From Candidatus Nanopelagicales bacterium (lineage in GTDB: Bacteria > Actinomycetota > Actinomycetes > S36-B12), in the NCBI GenBank assembly GCA_018402235.1, contig JAGYJJ010000004.1:827256-891255 (forward strand): a stretch of DNA of 64,000 nt, given 5' to 3'. A program made the translations under genes and the position numbers. How positions within the stretch are numbered: the first letter of the stretch is position 1; each line of letters begins with the position of its first letter. Below the pieces are notes generated by a model. That model searched no databases. It worked only from the letters and a program-made list of their open reading frames with translations, and was not told the origin of the DNA. Positions 29,793 to 58,654 of the stretch are shown piece after piece.

Positions 29793-30398
29793 TCAGTCCT
29801 CTTCCTTCTTGGCGGTCGTCTTCTTCGCGGCCGTCTTCTTGGCTGCAGTGGCCTTCTTTTCCGCTGGCGCGGCCTTCTTCGCGGTGGCCTTCTTCGCGGT
29901 CGTCTTCTTCGCGGTCGTCTTCTTCGCGGTCGTCTTCTTGGCTACCGGCGCGGCTTCCGTTGTTTCCGCGGCAGCCTCATCAGCAGCAGGTTTGGGGGCG
30001 GCCTTTGCGGGACTCTTCGAAGCGCTCTTCGAAGCAGGTTTCACCAGCGGAGCCACGATGACCTCCGTGCCATCGGTCAACACCACGGTGATGTGGCTGG
30101 TGCGCTTACCTATCCGGAAAGCACGCCCCTGAGCGCGCGGCCGGATCCGCTTGAGCGTGGGGCCCTCGTCGACGAATGCCTGCGCAACAACGAGCTCACG
30201 GGCGTCCATCGCGTGATTGTTCGTCGCGTTGGCGATCGCGCTCGCGAGAACCTTGCCCACGGGTTCGCTCGCCGCTTGCGGCGCGAACCTCAGCACGTCC
30301 TGCGCATCGGAGGCCTGCATCCCACGGATGAGGTCGATGACGCGGCGCGCTTTCATGGGCGTGACGCGGACGTACCGCGCTTGGGCCCTGGCTTCCAT
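29793..30398 (-). CDS. rplV: 50S ribosomal protein L22 with Lys/Ala-rich tail
   Basis: L22 spans the exit tunnel. The core (about 1-115) has [40 protein letters not shown] and [21 protein letters not shown] tail of about 85 residues follows, made largely of repeated AKKTT units ([13 protein letters not shown]), strongly basic. Many L22 proteins are 110-130 residues, so this tail is long; similar tails occur in some actinobacteria. It overlaps nothing and is two bases from rpsC. Confidence 0.96.
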
Positions 30399-47827: not shown

Positions 47828-48220
47828 TTACTTGAGCGTTACGGTGGCCCCGGCGCCCTCGAGGGCCGCCTTGGCTTCCTCGGCCTTGGCCTTGTTGACC
47901 TTCTCCAAGATCGGCTTCGGTGCACCCTCGACCAAGTCCTTGGCCTCCTTAAGGCCCAGGCTGGTGAGTGCGCGCACCTCCTTGATCACGGCGATCTTGT
48001 TGCCGCCATCGGCCTCGAGAACGACGTCGAACTCGTCCTTCTCCTCGGCCGCGCCGCCGGCATCGCCACCACCGGCAGCCGGAGCGGCAGCCGCGACGGC
48101 AACGGGGGCAGCAGCGGTAACGTCGAAGGTCTCCTCGAAGGCCTTCACGAACTCGCTGAGTTCCAGCAGGGACATCTCCTTGAACGCATCGAGGAGTTCA
48201 TCGGTGTTCATCTTCGCCAT
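47828..48220 (-). CDS. rplL: 50S ribosomal protein L7/L12
   Basis: The stalk protein that recruits translation GTPases. N-terminal dimer part [20 protein letters not shown], Ala/Gly hinge ([20 protein letters not shown]), C-terminal domain [20 protein letters not shown] through [17 protein letters not shown] 48220 is chosen, with AAAGGA upstream. 130 residues. Confidence 0.97.
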
Positions 48221-48264
48221 GGTGGCGTCCTTTCGAATCGTTCCGGCCGAGGGCCGGGTGGGCA

Positions 48265-49011
48265 TCAGCCCTCGGTGGTCTCCGCCGCCTCGGCTGTTTC
48301 CGCAGCCGGTGCGTCGGGGGTCTCATTGGTTGCTTCCTCGGTAGTTGCTTCAGCAGCAGCCACCTCGGTTGCGGTTTCTTCGGTTGCGGCTTCGACTACC
48401 TCTTCAGAAGTGGCCTCTTCCACGGCAGTGCTCGTCGATTCCTCGACAGCAGCCTCCGCCGGTGCGGTGCTTGCCGTCGCGCTCGTGGCCGACGGATCGG
48501 ACTCGAGCTTGGTCTGCAACGCGCCAACGGCGCGAGCGGCCTTCGCCAACGGTGCCGCGAACAGCGCAGCAGCCTGGGACTGCTTGGCCTTCATTGCTCC
48601 GGCCAGCTTGGACAACAGCACCTCGCGTGATTCCAGGTTCGCGAGCTTGGTGAAGTCCTCTGGCGAAAGCAGTGCACCGTCCATGTATCCGCCCTTGACG
48701 ATCAAGGCCGGATTGTCCTTGGCGAAGTTGCGGATGCCCTTGGCGGCATCGACCGGATCGCCTTCAACAAAGGCGATGGCGCTCGGGCCAACCAACAGCG
48801 CATCGATGCCGTCGATACCGGCATCGGCGGCTGCCCGCTTGGTCAGGGTGTTCTTGACGACCGAGAACGTGACCGTCGGGCCCAGCGAACGACGAAGGTC
48901 CTTCATCTGGGCGACGGACAGGCCGCGGTAGTCGGTCAGGACGGCAACAGCAGACGCGCGAAATCGATCGGCGATCTCAGTGACGGTCGCGACCTTGTCT
49001 TGACGGGCCAT
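48265..49011 (-). CDS. rplJ: 50S ribosomal protein L10 with long acidic tail
   Basis: L10 anchors L7/L12 to the ribosome. The core starts [20 protein letters not shown] and has [20 protein letters not shown] and [15 protein letters not shown]. After about residue 175 comes an Ala/Glu/Thr-rich tail of some 70 residues ([15 protein letters not shown]), longer than the usual L10. ATG 49011 follows an AAGGAGGA ribosome binding site. 248 residues. Confidence 0.95.
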
Positions 49012-49150
49012 CGTGGCTTCCTCCTTAAACAGGACCGAACGACGGATCCGCGAGGAGGAGCGACGAGCGCAGATGAGCGCAGATGAAACTGCGAAACTCT
49101 CTCCTGCGCGGGTCGCCCGCTGCTGCGGGGCCTTCGACTCGATCATGCGA
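49012..49150 (-). promoter_or_regulatory. probable L10 leader region
   Basis: The bases ahead of rplJ should contain the L10 autoregulatory leader known from many bacteria. I see AAGGAGGA next to the start, GC-rich arms around 49110-49130 and a 10-base tandem repeat gagcgcagat at 49065-49084, but I cannot fold it with confidence. The rest of the gap up to 49237 shows no gene. Confidence 0.3.
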
Positions 49151-49240
49151 TCGAGCAACCTGCGGTCTTCGGCGGGCCAAACAGTACGCCACCAGATCTA
49201 CCGCAGACCAGCGGGGGCCAGGCTCACGGGTTCAGACATG

Positions 49241-49277
49241 CACGAAGGCCGGTCCCTCATCGGGACCGGCCTTCGTG
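49241..49277 (-). terminator. strong hairpin after the secreted hydrolase gene
   Basis: A perfect 16-base stem, CACGAAGGCCGGTCCC (49241-49256) with GGGACCGGCCTTCGTG (49262-49277), has a 5-base loop. It lies 35 bases past the hydrolase stop. There is no U-run, but stem strength suggests a terminator. Confidence 0.7.
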
Positions 49278-49311
49278 TACGGGTACTGCTAGTTGGCTGT
49301 TGCCGCTCCCA

Positions 49312-51033
49312 CTAGTTGGCTGTAGCCAACGGGAACTTCAGCGGTTCCGGAGCGAAGAACCGGTCACGGTTCACGCCCGGCGCCCGGTAGGGCAGACGCT
49401 TGGCCGCAGCAACGGCCTTGGCCGTCTTGGCCTTGATCAACGCCTGGAGCGCCTTGACACCACCCACGTGCTGGTCAGCGGTGAAGGCGCAGTGGCCCAC
49501 ACCCGAACCGCCTGTAGCAGCCAGACTCAGCGCCGCGCTCGGGCTCTTGGCTCCCGGCTCGAACTTCGTGTACTCCAGATCCAGTGGATCTGTGTAGTAC
49601 TGAGCAGCCTTCAACATGCCCTTGTCATCAGCACGCTGCGCGGCCTTCGAACCAGCCATGTCCTCGAAGAACGTGTACTGATTTCCCGCCGGCACGATGG
49701 CGTCGTACGTGGTTGACATGAACACCGCAGGCTTGCGGTAGACCGGCTCGGCTGCCGGAAGGGCGTTCACGACGGTCACCGCGACAGGGTTCGCTGGGAA
49801 TCGAGCGGTCTGGCTGCCCACGCTGGCATCCAGCGCACCGAGCATGCGGTCAAGCACACCCGGTCCGGCGGCCGTGAAGGTGCCTTCGAACTCGTTGCGC
49901 TGCTCTAACGAGAGCAACTTGCTATACACGACGGGAACATTGTCGTTGAAGTTGGCGTTATCCGTCGGCGCCAATCCACCGATCGCGCGCGCGCGCTGCT
50001 CCAGGTCATAGCGACCCATGATGCCCAAAGCCGCTGCCGCTCCCACGTTCTGCAGCATGGCCGCAGTCGAGTTGGCGCCAGCAGACAGCGGGGCGAATCC
50101 GCCGGCAATCCCGGCACCCAATCCCTGCTCCGTGACCACGGGGTTCACCGTGATGCCGTCGTACTCCTGGGACTTGGTGGGCAATCCGCCCATCAGCCCA
50201 GCCAGCAGGTTGGCCTGGGCGATCGGGAAGCCGACAGGTGAGACGGTGGCCTGGCCGGTTGACACCGCATTGAGTGTCCCGAAGACCTTGGCCAGATCAC
50301 CCACTGCCTCCGCGTAACCGGCCTGGCCAGCGGAGTAGTTCGCGACCTTGAGGGTCGGATCGATCAGCGTCTTCCAGGTGTACAGCACCGTCATCGCGCT
50401 ACTGAATGCCTGCTCCGGGCCCTCCATCACGCCACACAGTGGCAAGGTTCCGGCGATCTTGCCCGGATTGCGCTGCACCAACGTCTGAGTAATGAGACCA
50501 CCGAGGGAATCTCCCCACGCGATGACTTCCTTGACACCAGATACAGCGCCACCGTTGATGTGACGGATGAGCAACTCGCCGGCCTCAACGCCTTCGGCAG
50601 TAGCCCAACCCTGCCGGGCGTAACCCGCACCAGCGAGGGCGTAGCCCTGGGCAAGGAGGTTCGCCGCAGACTCAGCCGACGGAGCAACCTGTGCTCCGCC
50701 GTTGCCCACGAGGGCCGGCCCGATTCCGGGGACCGTGGTCTGCGAGTAATACGGGGACCGATCCAAACCGAGCGCGCCAGCAATCTGCGCCGGAACCGGC
50801 TGAGCGATGCGGTACCCGTGCGAGTACAGCAGCACTGTGCCGTTGAACTTCGGCGGCATCGTGATCTGGAACGTGGTGTCGCCCAGCGAGCCGGTGAGCG
50901 CGCCGGAGCACGTCTCACCGAGCCCGCAGGCGTCGGCGGCATTAGCCGCCGGCGCCACGGTGGGAACGGCTACCAGCGCCAACCCCAGCGATGCGATTGC
51001 CGCAACGATGCGGCGGGACATAGTGATCTTCAC
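49312..51033 (-). CDS. secreted alpha/beta hydrolase
   Basis: A 573-residue exported hydrolase of unknown substrate. Residues 1-32 form a Sec signal peptide (MSRRIVAAIASLGLALVAVP, cleavage near ANA/AD). The nucleophile motif is WGDSLGG (Ser176), with LLYSHGYR as the oxyanion region, a possible acid in TTYDAIVPAGN and a histidine in GVGHCAF. The layout recalls bacterial secreted tannase-like or peptidase-like hydrolases, but no specific family is proven. Start GTG 51033. It follows the Liv-type binding protein by 29 bases, so the two are probably co-expressed and it might release a compound for import (inference). Confidence 0.85.
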   Translation of the reverse strand: MKITMSRRIVAAIASLGLALVAVPTVAPAANAADACGLGETCSGALTGSLGDTTFQITMPPKFNGTVLLYSHGYRIAQPVPAQIAGALGLDRSPYYSQTTVPGIGPALVGNGGAQVAPSAESAANLLAQGYALAGAGYARQGWATAEGVEAGELLIRHINGGAVSGVKEVIAWGDSLGGLITQTLVQRNPGKIAGTLPLCGVMEGPEQAFSSAMTVLYTWKTLIDPTLKVANYSAGQAGYAEAVGDLAKVFGTLNAVSTGQATVSPVGFPIAQANLLAGLMGGLPTKSQEYDGITVNPVVTEQGLGAGIAGGFAPLSAGANSTAAMLQNVGAAAALGIMGRYDLEQRARAIGGLAPTDNANFNDNVPVVYSKLLSLEQRNEFEGTFTAAGPGVLDRMLGALDASVGSQTARFPANPVAVTVVNALPAAEPVYRKPAVFMSTTYDAIVPAGNQYTFFEDMAGSKAAQRADDKGMLKAAQYYTDPLDLEYTKFEPGAKSPSAALSLAATGGSGVGHCAFTADQHVGGVKALQALIKAKTAKAVAAAKRLPYRAPGVNRDRFFAPEPLKFPLATAN

Positions 51034-51062
51034 AGTAATCCTCTTCTCCTAGTCCCCGCCGA

Positions 51063-52331
51063 TTACGGCAGCAACTTCCGGGTCGGGTTGGCCGGCTTGA
51101 AGTTGGCCCTCTTCGCCTTACCGGTCGAAGCACTGGTGGCCGTGATGATGTAGTTCGTCAAGCGGTCGAGCTCACCGTTGCTGTACTGACCCATCCAGTA
51201 ACCGGTCAGACCCTGGTGCGAGCTCTTGCTGTAGCGCAGCGGAACCGACGCGGCCGAGCGGAACTTGCTGGAGTTGGTCTCAAGGGAATTGATCAGACCC
51301 TTGCGTGTCAGGTTCGGACCAGCCATGTCGATCGCCTGGGCGAGGACGTAGGCGGTGTTGATGCCGTAGTAGGTGTAGAAGTTCCACGGCAGGTTAGCGC
51401 GATCAGCGATGACCTTCATCTGACGTACGTACGCGTTCCGGGTGTCTTGGATCGGGTGAATGAAGCTGGGTGTGTACACACCGTTCAAGATCCCCTTGGT
51501 GCCGACGAGTCCACCAACGATGTCCGGATCCGATCCGACCGAGGTGACCATCCAGGTGGGCTGGAAGCCCGCGCGAGCAGCAGTTCCCAGCAGGTTCGCC
51601 GTGGCCGAGGTCACACCGAAGAACACGACCAGTTCACAGCCAGCCGAACGAAGGGTCGATACCTGCGATGTCAGCGGCGACAATTGCTGGCCTGAGAAGT
51701 AGGAGGTCTCTGCGCTGAAGGAGATACCCGCAGCCTTGAACCCCGCCTTGGCGTTATCGCCAAACTCGCCGTCCTGGTACATCAAGCAACGCTTCTTGGC
51801 CTTGAGCTCAGGAGTGTTATCGATGTAGTAGCCCATGGCCTTGGATTCAACAATGTAGGAGGGGAAGAACGGGAAGGTGGTGGGGTAACGCCGAGGGTTA
51901 TCGAAGCTCGCCGCTCCCGTGTTCACGAATACGTCGGGAATGCCGCGTCGGTTGAGGTCGGCGATGACGGATGAATGAGTGGGCGTACCGAGCGCACCGA
52001 ACATCGCGAAGATCTTGTCGCGGTTGATCAACTGCGCGGTGCCGACCTTCGTCTTGGCGGGGTTGTACTGATCGTCGTAGACCCTCAGATCGATTTTGCG
52101 ACCGTTGATCCCACCATTCGCGTTCACGTAGTCGAAGTAAGCCTCGGCTGCTGCAGGGATGTCCTTGTAACCGGGAGCCGCTGGTCCGGTAAGCGGCGTG
52201 GTCATGCCGATGGTTATCGAGTTCCTGGTAACACCAGGATCCGCTGCCGAGGCCGGGGCGATGGCCCCAGCCATTCCGAGTGCGGTCACGGCGCCGATGG
52301 CTACCGCCCGCTTTGCAAAGGCCTTACCCAC
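51063..52331 (-). CDS. branched-chain amino acid type ABC transporter substrate-binding protein
   Basis: A 422-residue periplasmic-binding-protein-like domain of the LivJ/K family. The signal peptide (VGKAFAKRAVAIGAVTALGM to APASA) is cleaved by signal peptidase I: no lipobox cysteine is present, unusual for a Gram-positive binding protein, which is normally a lipoprotein. The mature start is ITIGMTTPLTGPAAPGYKDI, followed by NANGGINGRKIDLRVYDDQY. The C-terminus is basic (KAKRANFKPANPTRKLLP). Start GTG 52331, with GGGAGG upstream. It belongs with the LivM, LivH, LivF and LivG genes just upstream; the ligand could be an amino acid or another small organic acid. Confidence 0.92.
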   Translation of the reverse strand: MGKAFAKRAVAIGAVTALGMAGAIAPASAADPGVTRNSITIGMTTPLTGPAAPGYKDIPAAAEAYFDYVNANGGINGRKIDLRVYDDQYNPAKTKVGTAQLINRDKIFAMFGALGTPTHSSVIADLNRRGIPDVFVNTGAASFDNPRRYPTTFPFFPSYIVESKAMGYYIDNTPELKAKKRCLMYQDGEFGDNAKAGFKAAGISFSAETSYFSGQQLSPLTSQVSTLRSAGCELVVFFGVTSATANLLGTAARAGFQPTWMVTSVGSDPDIVGGLVGTKGILNGVYTPSFIHPIQDTRNAYVRQMKVIADRANLPWNFYTYYGINTAYVLAQAIDMAGPNLTRKGLINSLETNSSKFRSAASVPLRYSKSSHQGLTGYWMGQYSNGELDRLTNYIITATSASTGKAKRANFKPANPTRKLLP

Positions 52332-52472
52332 GTGAGTTCCCTCCCATAGTTGTGCTCGCCCGAACGCCGCGGCGCGACATGAATGACGGGTGAACACCGA
52401 GTGTCCGTGAGGCTAGTCACACCAGCCCCACAGGGCAATAGCTTTCGAAAAAAAGGACGATCCGGGCCTTGC

Positions 52473-53885
52473 TCAGCGACGGTTGAGGCGTTTAGCGAAC
52501 CCCTGGACCCCGCCTACGAGCCCCCCAGGCGCTGCAAGGACCACGAGAACTACCAGGATTCCGTAGAGGAAGTTCGGGGCATTGTTGGTGATTTGGTCGT
52601 CCCAACCCCGGTCAGCGGACACGTCCAAGACGAATTCGGGTAGCCAGACCAAGATGACGGCACCGATCATGGCTCCGATGAGTGACGTTCGGCCTCCAAG
52701 GACGATGCCCACGAGCAAAGACAGGGAAAGCCCGAGAGTGAAGGCCCCTGGGCCCACGAAACTGAGGATCTGCGCAAACACGGCCCCCGCGAGGGCCGCG
52801 AACAGGCTGCTCACGACGAAGGCTGAGATCTTCGATCCCGCTGGGGAAATGCCCGAGACGGCGGCCGCCACCGGGTCATCTCGAACTGCTTGCCAGACCC
52901 GTCCCTGGCGTCCGCGCACAAGGTTCAAGGCAACGAAACCCACGATGCAGGCAACCGCGATCGCGACAGAGGCCTGCCACTGCTCGATGACGAACCCAGC
53001 GTCGAGGCCGTCAATGGCCGAAACATCCGAACCGAGGTCTCCCTCCACACCGAAGGCCTCGTCGTCGAATGCCTCCTCGGGCACGACATCGTCCGTGGTG
53101 AAACCATCGTTGGTGGAGAAGTCGTCGTCGCTCAGGAAGTCGTCGTCGGACAAAAAGTCGTCGTCACCGAGAAAATCGTCGTCGGACAAAAAGTCGTCGT
53201 CGCTCAGGAAATCCTCATCCGAAAGAAAGTCATCACCGGCGAAATCGTCTTCGATAACGGCCTGCTCGTCCGTGAATAAGTCATCCGGAAGTTCCTCGTA
53301 CAACGGTTCATCGCCCCCACCAAGAAATTCGTCGGTCGATGCATCATCCGTGAGGCCGCCGGTAGCAGCTGCGTAACCGCCAGCAGGGTAGGGAACTTGG
53401 ATCATTAAGCCGTTCTCGCCGCCGAGTAAGCCGGGAAAACGATTAGCGATGGCGGGGACTCCCACGGCGATGCCCAGTGTTAAACCTGCGAGGTACGGAC
53501 CCTTAAGACGCGCGGCAATGCCACCGATCAGCAAACCGAAGACAACTCCGCCGATTCCGGCGAACACCATCGACCAGACAGCGTTCCATGGAGTACCCAA
53601 GATGGGCACGGTCTGCCAATTCAATGACGTCAGGGCGAATATGTAGCCGCCCACGGCCATCAATGCGCCGTTGCCGAGTGACACTTGTCCGGAAAGCCCA
53701 ACGAGGATCGTCATGCCGAACATTGCTGTCGCGTACATCGCCGCGGTAGCCAGGTAGTAGCTCAGCAGCGGATCGATGAACTGATTGATCCAAGTCAAGA
53801 GCCCGAAGATGACCAAGGCGATCAGGGCATGGCTGACCAGTCGAGTTCCCGGTAGTCGCTCCGTAAGGCTAGTGAGTCGCGACAT
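52473..53885 (-). CDS. livM: LivM-type ABC permease with acidic repeat insert
   Basis: Inner membrane permease of the branched-chain amino acid importer family, 470 residues. Helices near 20-40, 44-64, 70-90, 103-125 and 130-148 precede the insert; helices near 305-323, 354-375, 378-398, 404-420 and 440-458 follow. GLSGQVSLGNGALMAVGGY and the coupling loop VWQAVRDDPVAAAVSGISP are typical. Between GGENGLMIQ (about 158) and helix 6 there is an acidic insert of roughly 120 residues with D-D-D-F-L-S/G repeats (about 215-258), replacing a usually short loop. The topology puts this loop outside the cell. ATG 53885 shares one base with the livH stop; GTG 53888 is an alternative. Confidence 0.92.
   Translation of the reverse strand: MSRLTSLTERLPGTRLVSHALIALVIFGLLTWINQFIDPLLSYYLATAAMYATAMFGMTILVGLSGQVSLGNGALMAVGGYIFALTSLNWQTVPILGTPWNAVWSMVFAGIGGVVFGLLIGGIAARLKGPYLAGLTLGIAVGVPAIANRFPGLLGGENGLMIQVPYPAGGYAAATGGLTDDASTDEFLGGGDEPLYEELPDDLFTDEQAVIEDDFAGDDFLSDEDFLSDDDFLSDDDFLGDDDFLSDDDFLSDDDFSTNDGFTTDDVVPEEAFDDEAFGVEGDLGSDVSAIDGLDAGFVIEQWQASVAIAVACIVGFVALNLVRGRQGRVWQAVRDDPVAAAVSGISPAGSKISAFVVSSLFAALAGAVFAQILSFVGPGAFTLGLSLSLLVGIVLGGRTSLIGAMIGAVILVWLPEFVLDVSADRGWDDQITNNAPNFLYGILVVLVVLAAPGGLVGGVQGFAKRLNRR
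53115..53249 (-). repeat. 18-base tandem repeats encoding D-D-D-F-L-S units in livM
   Basis: About seven six-residue units, from E-D-D-F-A-G and D-D-F-L-S to D-E-D-F-L-S, then D-D-D-F-L-S/G several times, ending D-D-D-F-S-T. The codons vary at silent positions (TTC CTG AGC, TTT TTG TCC, TTT CTC GGT, TTT CTT TCG), while the residues are kept. Confidence 0.9.
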
Positions 53886-54763
53886 CACACGGTCCGAGCC
53901 TTGTGGTGGGTGAACACACCCTCGGGCTTGAACAACAAGTTGACGACGAGCAGGACGAGCGCAACGACCGGGGCGTTGCTGGAATCTGTGTAGCCAGATA
54001 CGAGTGAGATCACCAGTCCGGTGCCGATTCCGAAGGCCACCGCGCCTACCAAACTGTCAAGGCCGCCGATAACCGCCGCGGTGAAGGCGAAAACCAAAAA
54101 GACATCGAAGGCAGTGGGTGAGAGCGTTGTCAATGGCGCAACCAGCACACCGGCCACAGCCCCTACGAATCCCGCAATTGCCCAACCGAGAACCAACATG
54201 CGACTCACGCGCACACCCGATAGTCGGGCCACTTCAGGGTTGAACGCCGACGCCCGCATGGCGAGACCGACAGACGTGCGAGTGAAGACGATTGTTAACG
54301 CCAGCACCAATACGATGACTGTCACGACCACCAGGAGGTCGTACGGGGAAAATGGCCATACACGCCCACCGATTTCGAAGCCCGTGTTCCTGATCGGCGG
54401 CGGGAACGCCTTACCGTCTCCACCCCAGATCATTCCAGCGAACGCTTCCAACGCGATGAGTACGCCAAACGTCGCGATGATCGCGCCGGAGGTATCCATG
54501 CGCTTGACCGGCCGAATCACCAGGAAGTGGACGATCACGCCGAGCACCAGGCCAGAGGCCAATGCAGCCGCAAGTGCAAGCAGCCACGATCCCGTCAGGT
54601 CCCGAACCGTCAAGGCTATGAAAGTGGTGAACATCGCCTGCGCCAGTTGCGCAAAGTTCACAACGCGTGTCGATCGCCACACCAGCACTAGGGCGAGCGC
54701 CATCAACGCGATGATCACACCCGACGAGATGCCGCCGAGGAAATAGTCGATGAAGTTCGTCAT
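53885..54763 (-). CDS. livH: LivH-type ABC permease
   Basis: Second permease of the importer, 292 residues with about eight hydrophobic helices. It starts MTNFIDYFLGGISSGVIIAL; GLAMRASAFNPEVARLSGVR is the cytoplasmic coupling loop and FAFTAAVIGGLDSLVGAVAF is the conserved late helix. It overlaps livM by one to four bases and follows livF by 27 bases. No insert is seen, unlike its LivM partner. Confidence 0.93.
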   Translation of the reverse strand: MTNFIDYFLGGISSGVIIALMALALVLVWRSTRVVNFAQLAQAMFTTFIALTVRDLTGSWLLALAAALASGLVLGVIVHFLVIRPVKRMDTSGAIIATFGVLIALEAFAGMIWGGDGKAFPPPIRNTGFEIGGRVWPFSPYDLLVVVTVIVLVLALTIVFTRTSVGLAMRASAFNPEVARLSGVRVSRMLVLGWAIAGFVGAVAGVLVAPLTTLSPTAFDVFLVFAFTAAVIGGLDSLVGAVAFGIGTGLVISLVSGYTDSSNAPVVALVLLVVNLLFKPEGVFTHHKARTV

Positions 54764-54790
54764 CGGTCGTTGTCCTCCCCCGCATGCACG

Positions 54791-55495
54791 TCAGTAGCCC
54801 AGGTACGCATGACGCAACTCCTCGTCCTGTGCGATCTCTTGCGCAGGTCCGCTCTTGACGATCTCCCCGAGGTTCAACACGATGCCGGTTTTGGCAACAC
54901 GCAAGGCAGTGGTTGCGTTCTGCTCAACCAGAAGAACGGCCAGTCCGGAGTCCTTCGCCATGGTGCCGACCAATTCGAGGATCTGCGTAACGATCAACGG
55001 AGCCAGACCAAGCGATGGTTCGTCGAGCAGGAGCACCTGCGGACCGGTCATCAATGCTCGACCAATGGCCAGTTGCTGGCGCTCACCACCGCTGAGGGTG
55101 TCCGCACCGAGGGATCGACGCTCGCCCAACACAGGGAACAGCGTGTAGGCGCGCGTGAGTGAGGTATTGCGCTGGGCATGCGTGCGCCACATACCCCCGA
55201 GTTTCAGGTTCTCCTCGACCGTGAGGTCGGGAATGGTCGAGCGACCCTCGGGCACTAGCGCAATACCCATCCGAACTACGTCCTCGGGCTTGCGCCCGGT
55301 GATGTCCGTGTCGTTGAACGTCACGCGGCCGGACTGCGGCTTCTCTAGACCGGCGAGTGTGCGCATCAATGTGGACTTACCCGCGCCGTTTGCGCCAATA
55401 ACCGCGGTAACGCGGCCGGGGGGTACTTCGAGGGAGACGCCCTTCAACGCTTGAACGGCGCCGTAGCTGACCGATAGGTCCTCGATGGTCAACAT
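54791..55495 (-). CDS. livF: LivF-type ABC ATP-binding protein
   Basis: ATPase subunit, 234 residues. Walker A is GANGAGKSTLMRT, the signature LSGGERQQLAIGRAL, Walker B LLLDEPSLGLAP and the H-loop position LLVEQN, where Gln-Asn replaces His as in most LivF proteins. The start ATG 55495 shares one base with the livG stop, so the two ATPases are translationally coupled. Confidence 0.94.
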   Translation of the reverse strand: MLTIEDLSVSYGAVQALKGVSLEVPPGRVTAVIGANGAGKSTLMRTLAGLEKPQSGRVTFNDTDITGRKPEDVVRMGIALVPEGRSTIPDLTVEENLKLGGMWRTHAQRNTSLTRAYTLFPVLGERRSLGADTLSGGERQQLAIGRALMTGPQVLLLDEPSLGLAPLIVTQILELVGTMAKDSGLAVLLVEQNATTALRVAKTGIVLNLGEIVKSGPAQEIAQDEELRHAYLGY

Positions 55496-56290
55496 CAGGC
55501 GCCGACCTCTTCTTCTTCGCCGAGGTAGGCCGCGAGCACTGCCGGGTCGTTACGCACTTCATCCGGGCTTCCCGCGGCGATGACCTTGCCAGCATCGAGC
55601 ACCCAGATGAGATCGCATACCGCCATGACAAGTTCCATGTGGTGCTCCACGAGCAACACCGTGCGCTCGGGTGTCCAACTGCGGATCAAGCGTCCGAGTT
55701 CGGCCATGTCGCCGGCACCGATGCCACCCGCGGGTTCATCGAGCAAGAGCACCTTGGGATCACTGACGAGGGCACGAGCAAGCGCCACGCGCTTTTGCAC
55801 CGGGTAGGGCATCTCACCTGGAAGCCTGTTCGCCTCCTCGAGCACGCCCAGTTCAGCCATCGCTGCCTCGGCGCGCTCTCGAATCTTGCGCTGCTCGACG
55901 TCGACCCAGGGCAGCGCCAGCGAGTCAGCAACGATTCCACTCTTCACGGTGCCCGAAGCCCCGAGCATCACGTTCTCTAGTGCACTGAGCGATGGAAACA
56001 GCCCCACACCCTGCAATGTCCGCGGAGATACCCATCTTCGACAGATGGTGCGTCTTGATGTGGCGCAGCCGCTTGCCGTCGAATTTCACCTTGCCAGAAT
56101 CGGGCTTCACGAATCCGGTCATGACGTTGAAGACGGTGGTCTTGCCCGCACCGTTGGGACCGATCAGTCCGGTGACTGACCCCTCGGGGATACCGATGCT
56201 CACTTCATTGAGGATCTGCAGGCCACCGAAGGACACACTTATGTCCACGGTCTGGAGCAGAGGATGTGTGAGCGGAAGGTGATACTTCAC
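55495..56290 (-). CDS. livG: LivG-type ABC ATP-binding protein, reading frame broken by one extra base
   Basis: Second ATPase subunit. The first part has Walker A GPNGAGKTTVFNVMTGFVKP and ends at HHLSKMGIS; the rest continues in another frame as RTLQGVGLFPSLSALENVML. Walker B is LLLDEPAGGIG and the H-loop LLVEHH. The segment before Walker B reads MPYPVQKRVALARAL instead of the usual LSxGQ signature, so the signature itself may be weak or degenerate. Removing one base at about 56023 restores GISRTLQGVGLF, which fits the family perfectly. The repaired protein is about 264 residues. As written it is truncated. Confidence 0.9.
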
Positions 56291-56396
56291 GCAGACACCC
56301 TCCCGCCGGACGAGGCGCCCAGGCAGGCGGCGCCGAATGGTCAGGACAGTGTGTACGGCAGATGAACGCCGGTCAACCGAAAATCACAGGGAAATG

Positions 56397-56426
56397 AAAA
56401 AGGCCCAGCAGATGCCGGGCCCTTTT
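56397..56426 (-). terminator. intrinsic terminator after rplA
   Basis: On the minus strand, AAAAGGGCCC, a 10-base loop, GGGCCTTTTT: a GC-rich stem followed by a run of T, ending some 15-45 bases past the rplA stop. Confidence 0.8.
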
Positions 56427-56439
56427 CCTGTGTTCGGGT

Positions 56440-57141
56440 CTAAAGGTCGTCGTCCTCGTTCTTGGCCGGGTCGATCGGGATACCCGGGCCCATCGTTGAC
56501 GACATCGTGGCCTTTTTTATGTAGCGGCCCTTGGCAGCCGATGGCTTCAGGCGGTTGATCTCATCCACCACTGCCGTGAAGTTCTCCGCGAGTTGGTCGG
56601 CTCCAAAAGAGGCCTTGCCAATCGGGAACTGCAGATTGGAGTGCTTGTCGAGACGGAACTCGATCTTGCCGCCCTTGATGTCGCCCACGGCCTTGGCGAC
56701 GTCCATCGTGACGGTGCCGGTCTTGGGGTTGGGCATCAAGCCACGCGGGCCCAGGACCTTGCCGAGCGTGCCGACCTTGCCCATGAGATCAGGTGTGGCG
56801 ACCACGGCATCGAAGTCGGTCCAGCCGCCCTTGACCTTCTCGAGCATGTCGTCCGAACCGACGTAATCGGCTCCAGCAGCTCGCGCCTCCTCGGCCTTTT
56901 CGCCACCGGCGAATACCAGCACGCGGGCGGTCTTGCCGGTGCCGTGCGGGAGATTGACGGTGCCGCGGACCATCTGATCGGCCTTGCGGGGATCCACCCC
57001 AAGACGCATCGAGATATCGATGGTCGGGTCGAACTTGGTCGAGACCGAATCCTTAATGATCTTGATCGCACCCACGGGGCTGTAGATCTTGTCGGCCTCG
57101 ATTTTCTCGGCCGCTTGGCGGTATGCCTTACTGCGCTTCAT
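56440..57141 (-). CDS. rplA: 50S ribosomal protein L1
   Basis: L1 forms the stalk that moves deacylated tRNA, and often represses its own operon. [20 protein letters not shown] starts the protein; [20 protein letters not shown] and [20 protein letters not shown] are the conserved RNA-binding parts. ATG 57141 is chosen as the family start. 233 residues. Confidence 0.97.
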
Positions 57142-57231
57142 CTCTGCTCTCCTTATTTGGCAGTTGTGGTTGGCGAGCCGCGCTGGCTCTCCCACACTCT
57201 TGTTCGGTTATTTGGTTGTGTGCCTGCAGTA

Positions 57232-57663
57232 CTACGCGGTGACGGTGATGCCCATCTGACGCGCAGTTCCTTCGATGATCTTCATCGCGGCCTCAACATC
57301 GTTGGCGTTGAGGTCGGGCATCTTGGTCTCGGCGATCTCGCGCACCTGATCCTTGGTGATCGAACCGGCCTTGACGGTGTGCGGGGTTCCCGAACCCTTG
57401 GGAATGCCCGCGGCCTTCAAGATCAACTTGGCGGCGGGCGGTGTCTTCAAGATGAAGTCGAAGGAACGGTCTTCGAACACCGTGATCTCGACTGGGATGA
57501 CCGTGCCGCGCTTGTCTTCCGTGGCGGCGTTGTAAGCCTTGCAGAAGTCCATGATGTTGACGCCGTGCTGGCCGAGTGCTGGGCCCACGGGAGGAGCCGG
57601 GTTGGCCTGGCCTGCCTCGATCTGCAACTTGATCAGGCCAGTGACCTTCTTCTTGGGTGCCAT
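57232..57663 (-). CDS. rplK: 50S ribosomal protein L11
   Basis: L11 forms the GTPase-associated centre. It has [40 protein letters not shown] and ends [15 protein letters not shown]. 143 residues; 52 bases from the nusG stop. Confidence 0.97.
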
Positions 57664-57686
57664 TGTCTTCTTCCTCTTGTTTGCTT

Positions 57687-57748
57687 AGTTCTCGTCGATC
57701 TGGCTCAACGCCAGCTCAGTTCTTGTCGATCTGGCTGAACGCCAACTC
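57687..57748 (-). repeat. 31-base tandem duplication at the nusG stop codon
   Basis: Units 57687-57717 and 57718-57748 match at 28 of 31 bases. The upstream unit encodes the last residues [10 protein letters not shown] of NusG; the second copy would encode [10 protein letters not shown] with a TAA, but in a frame shifted by one base, so NusG stops at the TGA between them. Confidence 0.85.
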
Positions 57749-58654
57749 AACGGGGGTCTCGCGTCCGAAGATCTCGACCAGGCCGGTCACCTTCTGGGCT
57801 TCGATGTTGATCTCGGAGATCGTGGCGTGCAAAGTAGCGAACGGCCCATCGACCACCGTCACAGAATCGCCCACCGAGAAGTCGATCTCGATAGGCGTGG
57901 CGGCCGCCGCAGCGGCTTCGCCGATGCTGGTCGGGCCGGCAGCCGCAGCAGGCTTCTTCTCTGGCGTGGGGGCAAGGATCGCCACTACTTCGTCCAAGGA
58001 CAACGGAGCGGGCGAGTGCCCATGACCGACGAAGCCGGTCACACCGGGCGTATGACGAACCACACCCCATGACTCATCCGTTAGGTCCATCCGAACCAGG
58101 ACGTAACCGGGGAACTTGTTGCGCTTGACCTGCTTGCGCACACCGCTTTTGATCTCGGTGACCTCTTCCATCGGAACCTCGACCTGGAAGATGTAGTCCT
58201 CCATGTTGAGCGTGGTGGTGCGCGCCTCAACGTTGCCCTTCACCTTGTTCTCGTAACCGGAGTACGAGTGAACTACGTACCAATCACCCGGAGCGATGCG
58301 CATCTCCTGGCGGAATGCCTCGACCGGATCGATCTCCTCTTCGACGACTTCTTCGGCAGCTTCGGCTGAGTCCGCTTCAACTGCGTCCGCTTCAACTGCG
58401 TCCGCTTCAACTAGAGCGTCGGCAGCGGATTCCGCAGCAAGGTCGGCATCGCCGGCCGCGTCCGCAATCTCCTGCGCCTCAGCAACGACCTCTGCCTCGG
58501 CTTCGGCTTCGGCCTCGTCGATTAAGACGTCGTCGGCGGAGGTGGTCGGCTCGGTGAACTCGATCGCGTCGCCAGCAGGCTGACTCACATCAGACTGGTT
58601 CGCGTTCTCACCGACCGAGAACGGGTCGATCGATGGCTGGTCCTGCTCGGACAC
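57716..58654 (-). CDS. nusG: transcription termination/antitermination factor NusG
   Basis: NusG couples RNA polymerase to Rho or the ribosome. An acidic, Ala/Glu-rich N-terminal extension of about 115 residues precedes the NGN domain ([20 protein letters not shown] to [20 protein letters not shown]). A spacer of about 45 residues rich in Ala and Pro follows, then the KOW domain [20 protein letters not shown]. The long acidic arm is typical of actinobacteria. 312 residues. Confidence 0.96.
58371..58415 (-). repeat. 15-base tandem repeat in the nusG acidic arm
   Basis: Three 15-base units tccgcttcaactgcg (last one ending aga) encode repeated V-E-A-D-A in the acidic N-terminal arm of NusG. Confidence 0.8.

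Follow-up and report, generated by a model that had tools for sequence, protein, structure and literature searches.

Why would a LivM-type ABC permease, from an amino-acid-type transporter, carry an acidic loop of 126 residues between two of its membrane helices? The question is raised by one gene in the 64,000-nucleotide stretch of DNA analyzed here (the window). The permease family is known, and the arm formed by this loop is new and clade-specific. To our knowledge, few bacterial permeases have been described with a disordered extracellular arm that bears conserved linear motifs in tandem, and a literature search for a LivM loop of this kind, or for a LivHMGF structure, found nothing among the papers searched. 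The hosts are uncultured aquatic actinobacteria, so their nutrient uptake is of ecological interest. We tentatively suggest, as a plausible reading that stops short of being probable, that the acidic arm on the permease captures the unanchored binding protein encoded in the same operon.

The permease and its loop

The operon and the features discussed below are as follows (window coordinates).

49312 to 51033, minus strand: secreted protein resembling alpha/beta-hydrolases, with weak S33 similarity, encoded downstream of the binding protein
51063 to 52397, minus strand: partner substrate-binding protein (Peripla_BP_6, LivJ fold) with a Sec signal peptide and no lipobox
52473 to 53888, minus strand: LivM-type ABC permease with insert, 471 aa (Pfam match; AlphaFold2 core pLDDT mostly 86–98)
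52995 to 53372, minus strand: extracellular, acidic, disordered loop (the arm) between TM5 and TM6, 126 aa with 48 D/E and 0 K/R (from pLDDT and composition)
53112 to 53237, minus strand: array of seven six-residue DDDFLS-like units (from TRF, codon comparison and translation)
53885 to 54763, minus strand: LivH-type permease partner
54791 to 55495, minus strand: LivF-type ATPase
55495 to 56290, minus strand: LivG-type ATPase, in two pieces because of a frameshift in the assembly

The permease scores 96.5 bits against PF02653 (BPD_transp_2), for which the gathering cut-off is 26.8, and it is encoded with LivH, LivG (frameshifted in the window), LivF, and a LivJ-like binding protein. Against the NCBIfam model of the E. 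coli-type LivM (PRK11301), it reaches 99.1 bits where the curated cut-off is 366, and thus it is a distant relative of that type. The loop comprises LivM residues 173–298 and contains 37 Asp and 11 Glu but no Lys or Arg. Within it, residues 218–259 read GDDFLS, DEDFLS, DDDFLS, DDDFLG, DDDFLS, DDDFLS, DDDFST. A preliminary description of the DNA, made from the letters alone, had named a LivM permease with an Asp-rich, outward-facing insert of ~120 residues at 53000–53370 and about seven D-D-D-F-L-S/G units. All of this holds, although the exact DDDFLS unit occurs only three times.

No Pfam domain was found in the insert by profile search. In AlphaFold2 models built from a 51-sequence alignment, pLDDT is below 50 across nearly all of residues 171–293 and averages 41–58 per 10-residue block, so the loop is predicted to be intrinsically disordered. 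The orientation of the loop follows from its flanks: TM5 is preceded by a basic ARLKG turn and TM6 is followed by a basic RGRQGR/coupling segment, and both should be cytoplasmic by the positive-inside rule, which places the loop outside the cell. The AlphaFold model and the lack of K/R in the loop agree with this placement. A search of LivM against PDB structures gave no significant match, and no solved structure of a LivHM-type relative was found by sequence or by fold.

A trait of one actinobacterial family

Relatives were gathered by whole-genome search and by a scan of GTDB species genomes, and loop lengths were taken at the same alignment columns. All 36 of the 36 long-loop LivMs on the tree have 85–190 residues at the same site, and they come from a single Nanopelagicales family; three further clade members have a secondarily shortened, motif-poor loop of 62 residues. 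The clade is probably GTDB family S36-B12, whose genomes are 2–3 Mb with about 60% G+C (PMC9726936). Other LivM/BPD_transp_2 proteins (PF02653), including those of Nanopelagicaceae and Micromonosporaceae, share the membrane core, the coupling segment, the GGENGL segment and the operon partners, but have only 17–33 residues at this site (21 in Nanopelagicaceae, 17–21 in Micromonosporaceae, and 21–33 in the two nearest outliers), whereas the loop of the clade is long, acidic and disordered, with a tandem motif. In a maximum-likelihood tree of the LivM core, from which the loop was excluded, the 36 long-loop and three 62-residue sequences group together (bootstrap/aLRT 95/99). The loop is kept in all 39 clade rows of the tree, and the 62-residue group is nested inside the clade, so one gain and one shortening suffice.

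The preliminary description knew of no other LivM with such a loop; the relatives make it a trait of the whole clade rather than of the window protein. Absence or a broken frame in close relatives, which that description had also considered, is not what we see: the loop is retained, and no frame-broken copy was seen among the relatives. Misassembly of the loop is rejected as well, given that relatives carry it. Records L033, L034, L043, L046, L047, L049, and L055 are titled Rubrivirga, Gammaproteobacteria, or Bifidobacterium breve; they hold the clade operon and look mislabeled.

One motif, many repeat units

The 40 loops collected total 4,509 residues, in which K, R, H, W, and C are nearly absent. 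The D+E fraction is 0.34–0.39 in loops of the window's own genus, the most acidic, versus 0.12–0.32 elsewhere; this genus was sampled in part from the Caspian and apparently from the open ocean. The repeated unit changes from lineage to lineage (DDLLTSDNFPSGDASVAP, EDLLTLEDAQQGVAQ, DDMLTPSDVTGSTSP, DELTLDTFPTAQPSGGTG, EEDLLT, and, in the window, DDDFLS), and common to all is a motif of approximately D-[DE]-[LMF]-L-[TS]-x-[DE]-[DN]-[FL], with spacers that vary by lineage. The DDDFLS hexamer, first taken to be the unit, is therefore the lineage-local form of a wider DDLLTxDDF-like motif. Of the 40 loops, 36 hold a 4-residue core of the motif (about 6 after composition-preserving shuffling), and 32 hold a 7-residue form (about 1 after such shuffling). 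Because the loops are homologous and hence nonindependent, these counts measure retention and not independent origin. Even the loops of L044 and L010 (L010 and L045 are one locus), just 12%–14% acidic, retain the motif as DMLTPSD. One short motif has thus been reduplicated as different units across lineages while the spacers turned over.

The motif was sought in the window's own genome and in a set of 40 genomes, of which the family supplied 24 (own genome included). No credible carrier other than LivM was found in the own genome or in the 23 other family genomes; the marginal matches inspected, set aside as housekeeping or unrelated, were phosphoglycerate kinase, an aminopeptidase-like protein, and a mechanosensitive-channel-like protein. 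As far as the searched genomes go, LivM alone carries the motif, and we therefore reject it as a general anchoring signal. Signatures were checked for two roles offered in the preliminary description. For cation binding, the calcium-binding RTX (GGxGxDxU) and TSP3 (DxDxDG) signatures are absent from all 40 loops and EF-hand-like matches are rare (2–4 of 40). For cell-wall tethering, a sortase LPxTG signal occurs in just 2 of 40 loops and is not conserved.

Repeat DNA and selection on the loop

Tandem Repeats Finder reports the array at a period of 36, with 3.1 copies and a score of 156. The codons of neighboring units differ silently (pooled pS 0.91, pN 0.18), as the preliminary description had noted in arguing against recent slippage. 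That argument stands only in part: units 3 and 5 match at 18 of 18 bases, which makes one portion of the array a 36-bp duplication of recent date, and copy number varies. The array is a mix of older divergence and recent duplication. Two relatives that are almost identical, L033 and L034, are set apart by an in-frame block of 37 residues (collapse of one copy in assembly is possible).

Between close relatives (L035 vs. L033 or L034), dN/dS is 0.05–0.06 in the loop, not far from the 0.02–0.03 of the core. The loop is thus under purifying selection at short range, which bears out the earlier claim that selection acts on the protein. Between species, the loop sequence diverges fast.

A basic binding protein without a lipid anchor

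In the window's binding protein, the signal peptide closes with an AxA-type site and lacks a lipobox. Cys is absent from the signal-peptide region in 34 of 34 clade binding proteins, whereas a lipobox is present in eight of eight Micromonosporaceae orthologs. Lipidation is available to the host, because Lgt was found in its own genome. The same genome has another livH/livM pair, whose LivM paralog lacks the insert and has a loop of ordinary, short length. Near this loopless livM lies a paralogous binding protein with a LAAC lipobox (L116, C3:236140–237159). It carries an acidic Glu/Asp-Thr-Ala linker after the lipobox, so external linkers may often be acidic in this host.

The mature binding protein of the window has a net charge of about +13. 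Charges across the clade are +9 to +26, versus −2 to −12 in Micromonosporaceae (L066 is omitted, as its binding-protein gene ends at a contig edge). Compared with both outgroups, conserved changes comprise six basic residues gained and four acidic lost, against two basic lost and two acidic gained. Loop and binding-protein net charges correlate negatively across the clade (Spearman −0.57, p=0.001), but phylogenetic contrasts remove the significance of this correlation (r=−0.26, p=0.17), and the unrelated control rplA correlates with the loop more strongly and in the same direction. Charge coevolution therefore lends weak support, and the binding protein is a putative partner of the loop. Docking of the binding protein, which the preliminary description had listed among possible roles, has gained circumstantial support.

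The lack of an anchor extends beyond the clade. Nanopelagicaceae (acI) and L083 have nonlipidated, basic binding proteins and a loop of only 21 residues. The anchor was thus lost before the loop arose, and its loss can be tolerated, which counts against capture by the arm. At the C-terminus, clade binding proteins have a conserved PT[KRS]KLLP tail (PTRKLLP in the window, 51063–51140); the outgroup tails are related but different.

What the arm may do

The reading we favor is that LivM carries an extracellular, disordered, acidic arm whose tandem short motif would bind the basic, nonlipidated binding protein and hold it near the translocator. With a number of weak sites on one flexible tether, the binding protein would be more concentrated near the translocator, and the arm would take over the role that lipidation or fusion has in other Gram-positive-type importers; such capture may be the reason that the loop is retained. 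In its favor are the single gain and later retention of the loop, the motif that outlasts its spacers, the basic, lipobox-free binding proteins of the clade in a host with Lgt, and the short-looped LivM paralog near a binding protein with a lipobox. Against it stand the short-looped Nanopelagicaceae and L083, the acidic linker of L116, the loss of the charge correlation after phylogenetic contrasts, and the frameshift in livG. The lineage-specific repeat units fit a picture in which what counts is having copies of a single short binding motif, and confinement of the motif to LivM speaks against a signal for anchoring in general. Some replacement for the lost tether would be of use, because the secreted, nonlipidated form of MetQ barely stimulates its transporter whereas the lipidated form does (PMC8416018). 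If the arm does recruit the binding protein, this would explain how a single-membrane cell retains an unlipidated one. That it represents a new mode of retention, in which a disordered permease arm uses the avidity of its tandem motifs to catch a binding protein that is exported free, we regard as rather doubtful.

Known systems offer partial parallels. The P2 loop of MalF, in the E. coli maltose importer, is likewise a large external permease insertion that contacts a binding protein; it is cited in PMC3150292 as binding MalE, and is a precedent for contact between a permease loop and a binding protein. P2, however, is structured and sits at a different site in an unrelated type I permease, whereas the window arm is predicted to be disordered, is acidic and repetitive, and binds only putatively; its low pLDDT gives no sign of a folded external domain. 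GlnPQ and OpuA would meet the same need, in that the binding domain stays with the transporter and requires no lipid anchor of its own, but there the domain is covalently fused, whereas in the clade the binding protein is a separate exported protein with its own gene and, in the window, the insert contains no such domain. Lipoprotein binding proteins of Gram-positive-type importers are alike in being tethered; there the anchor sits on the binding protein, whereas that of the clade has none.

Other explanations must be weighed against capture. The arm could be an acidic brush with no specific partner, repelling the cell wall, hydrating the vestibule or concentrating cationic or metal-bound substrates near the pore, in which case composition matters and the motif is incidental. 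The near absence of K, R, H, W, and C and the concentration of the most acidic loops in a genus found partly in Caspian and apparently open-ocean samples fit a brush, but it leaves unexplained a sequence-specific motif in 36 of 40 loops, its persistence in weakly acidic ones, and the lack of calcium-binding signatures, and we judge it unlikely. We would give about the same small weight to near-neutral expansion, in which an exposed loop tolerates slippage, its repeats drift, and only positive charge and folding are disfavored. Lengths from 62 to about 190 residues, the block that separates L033 from L034, and the identity of units 3 and 5 are what such expansion would produce; it is hard to reconcile with the low loop dN/dS, with a single gain kept in 39 of 39 clade members, and with a motif that stays constant, and in frame, as the spacers diverge.

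Less likely again is docking to another extracellular partner, such as the cell wall, a surface polymer, or another secreted protein. The motif does resemble a protein-binding linear motif, but the rarity of LPxTG argues against the wall. The hydrolase of the operon is missing in L044, L053, L059, L063, L065, and L076, of which five retain the long loop (L076 is masked at the loop), and because these members keep the loop without the gene we reject the hydrolase as docking partner. Finally, a misassembly or spurious frame might be suspected, given that repeats are prone to assembly error and that livG of the same operon is frameshifted. An in-frame loop at the same site in tens of independently assembled genomes makes an artifact extremely improbable, and only the copy number in the window is uncertain.

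Genomic setting

In the window, livG consists of two overlapping frames with a frameshift near 55925–56016; relatives have a single intact frame. The split reflects a sequencing error or else a pseudogene of recent origin, and a true pseudogene would mean that the transporter is silenced in the window genome. On complete clade contigs, the operon and the hydrolase gene lie inside a ribosomal-protein cluster, in the order nusG-rplK-rplA, liv genes, rplJ-rplL (47828–58654 in the window), and the liv loci of Nanopelagicaceae lack this neighborhood. Elsewhere in the window, at 29805–29939, a 15-bp unit with the consensus CTTCTTCGCGGTCGT is repeated in tandem about 8.4 times.
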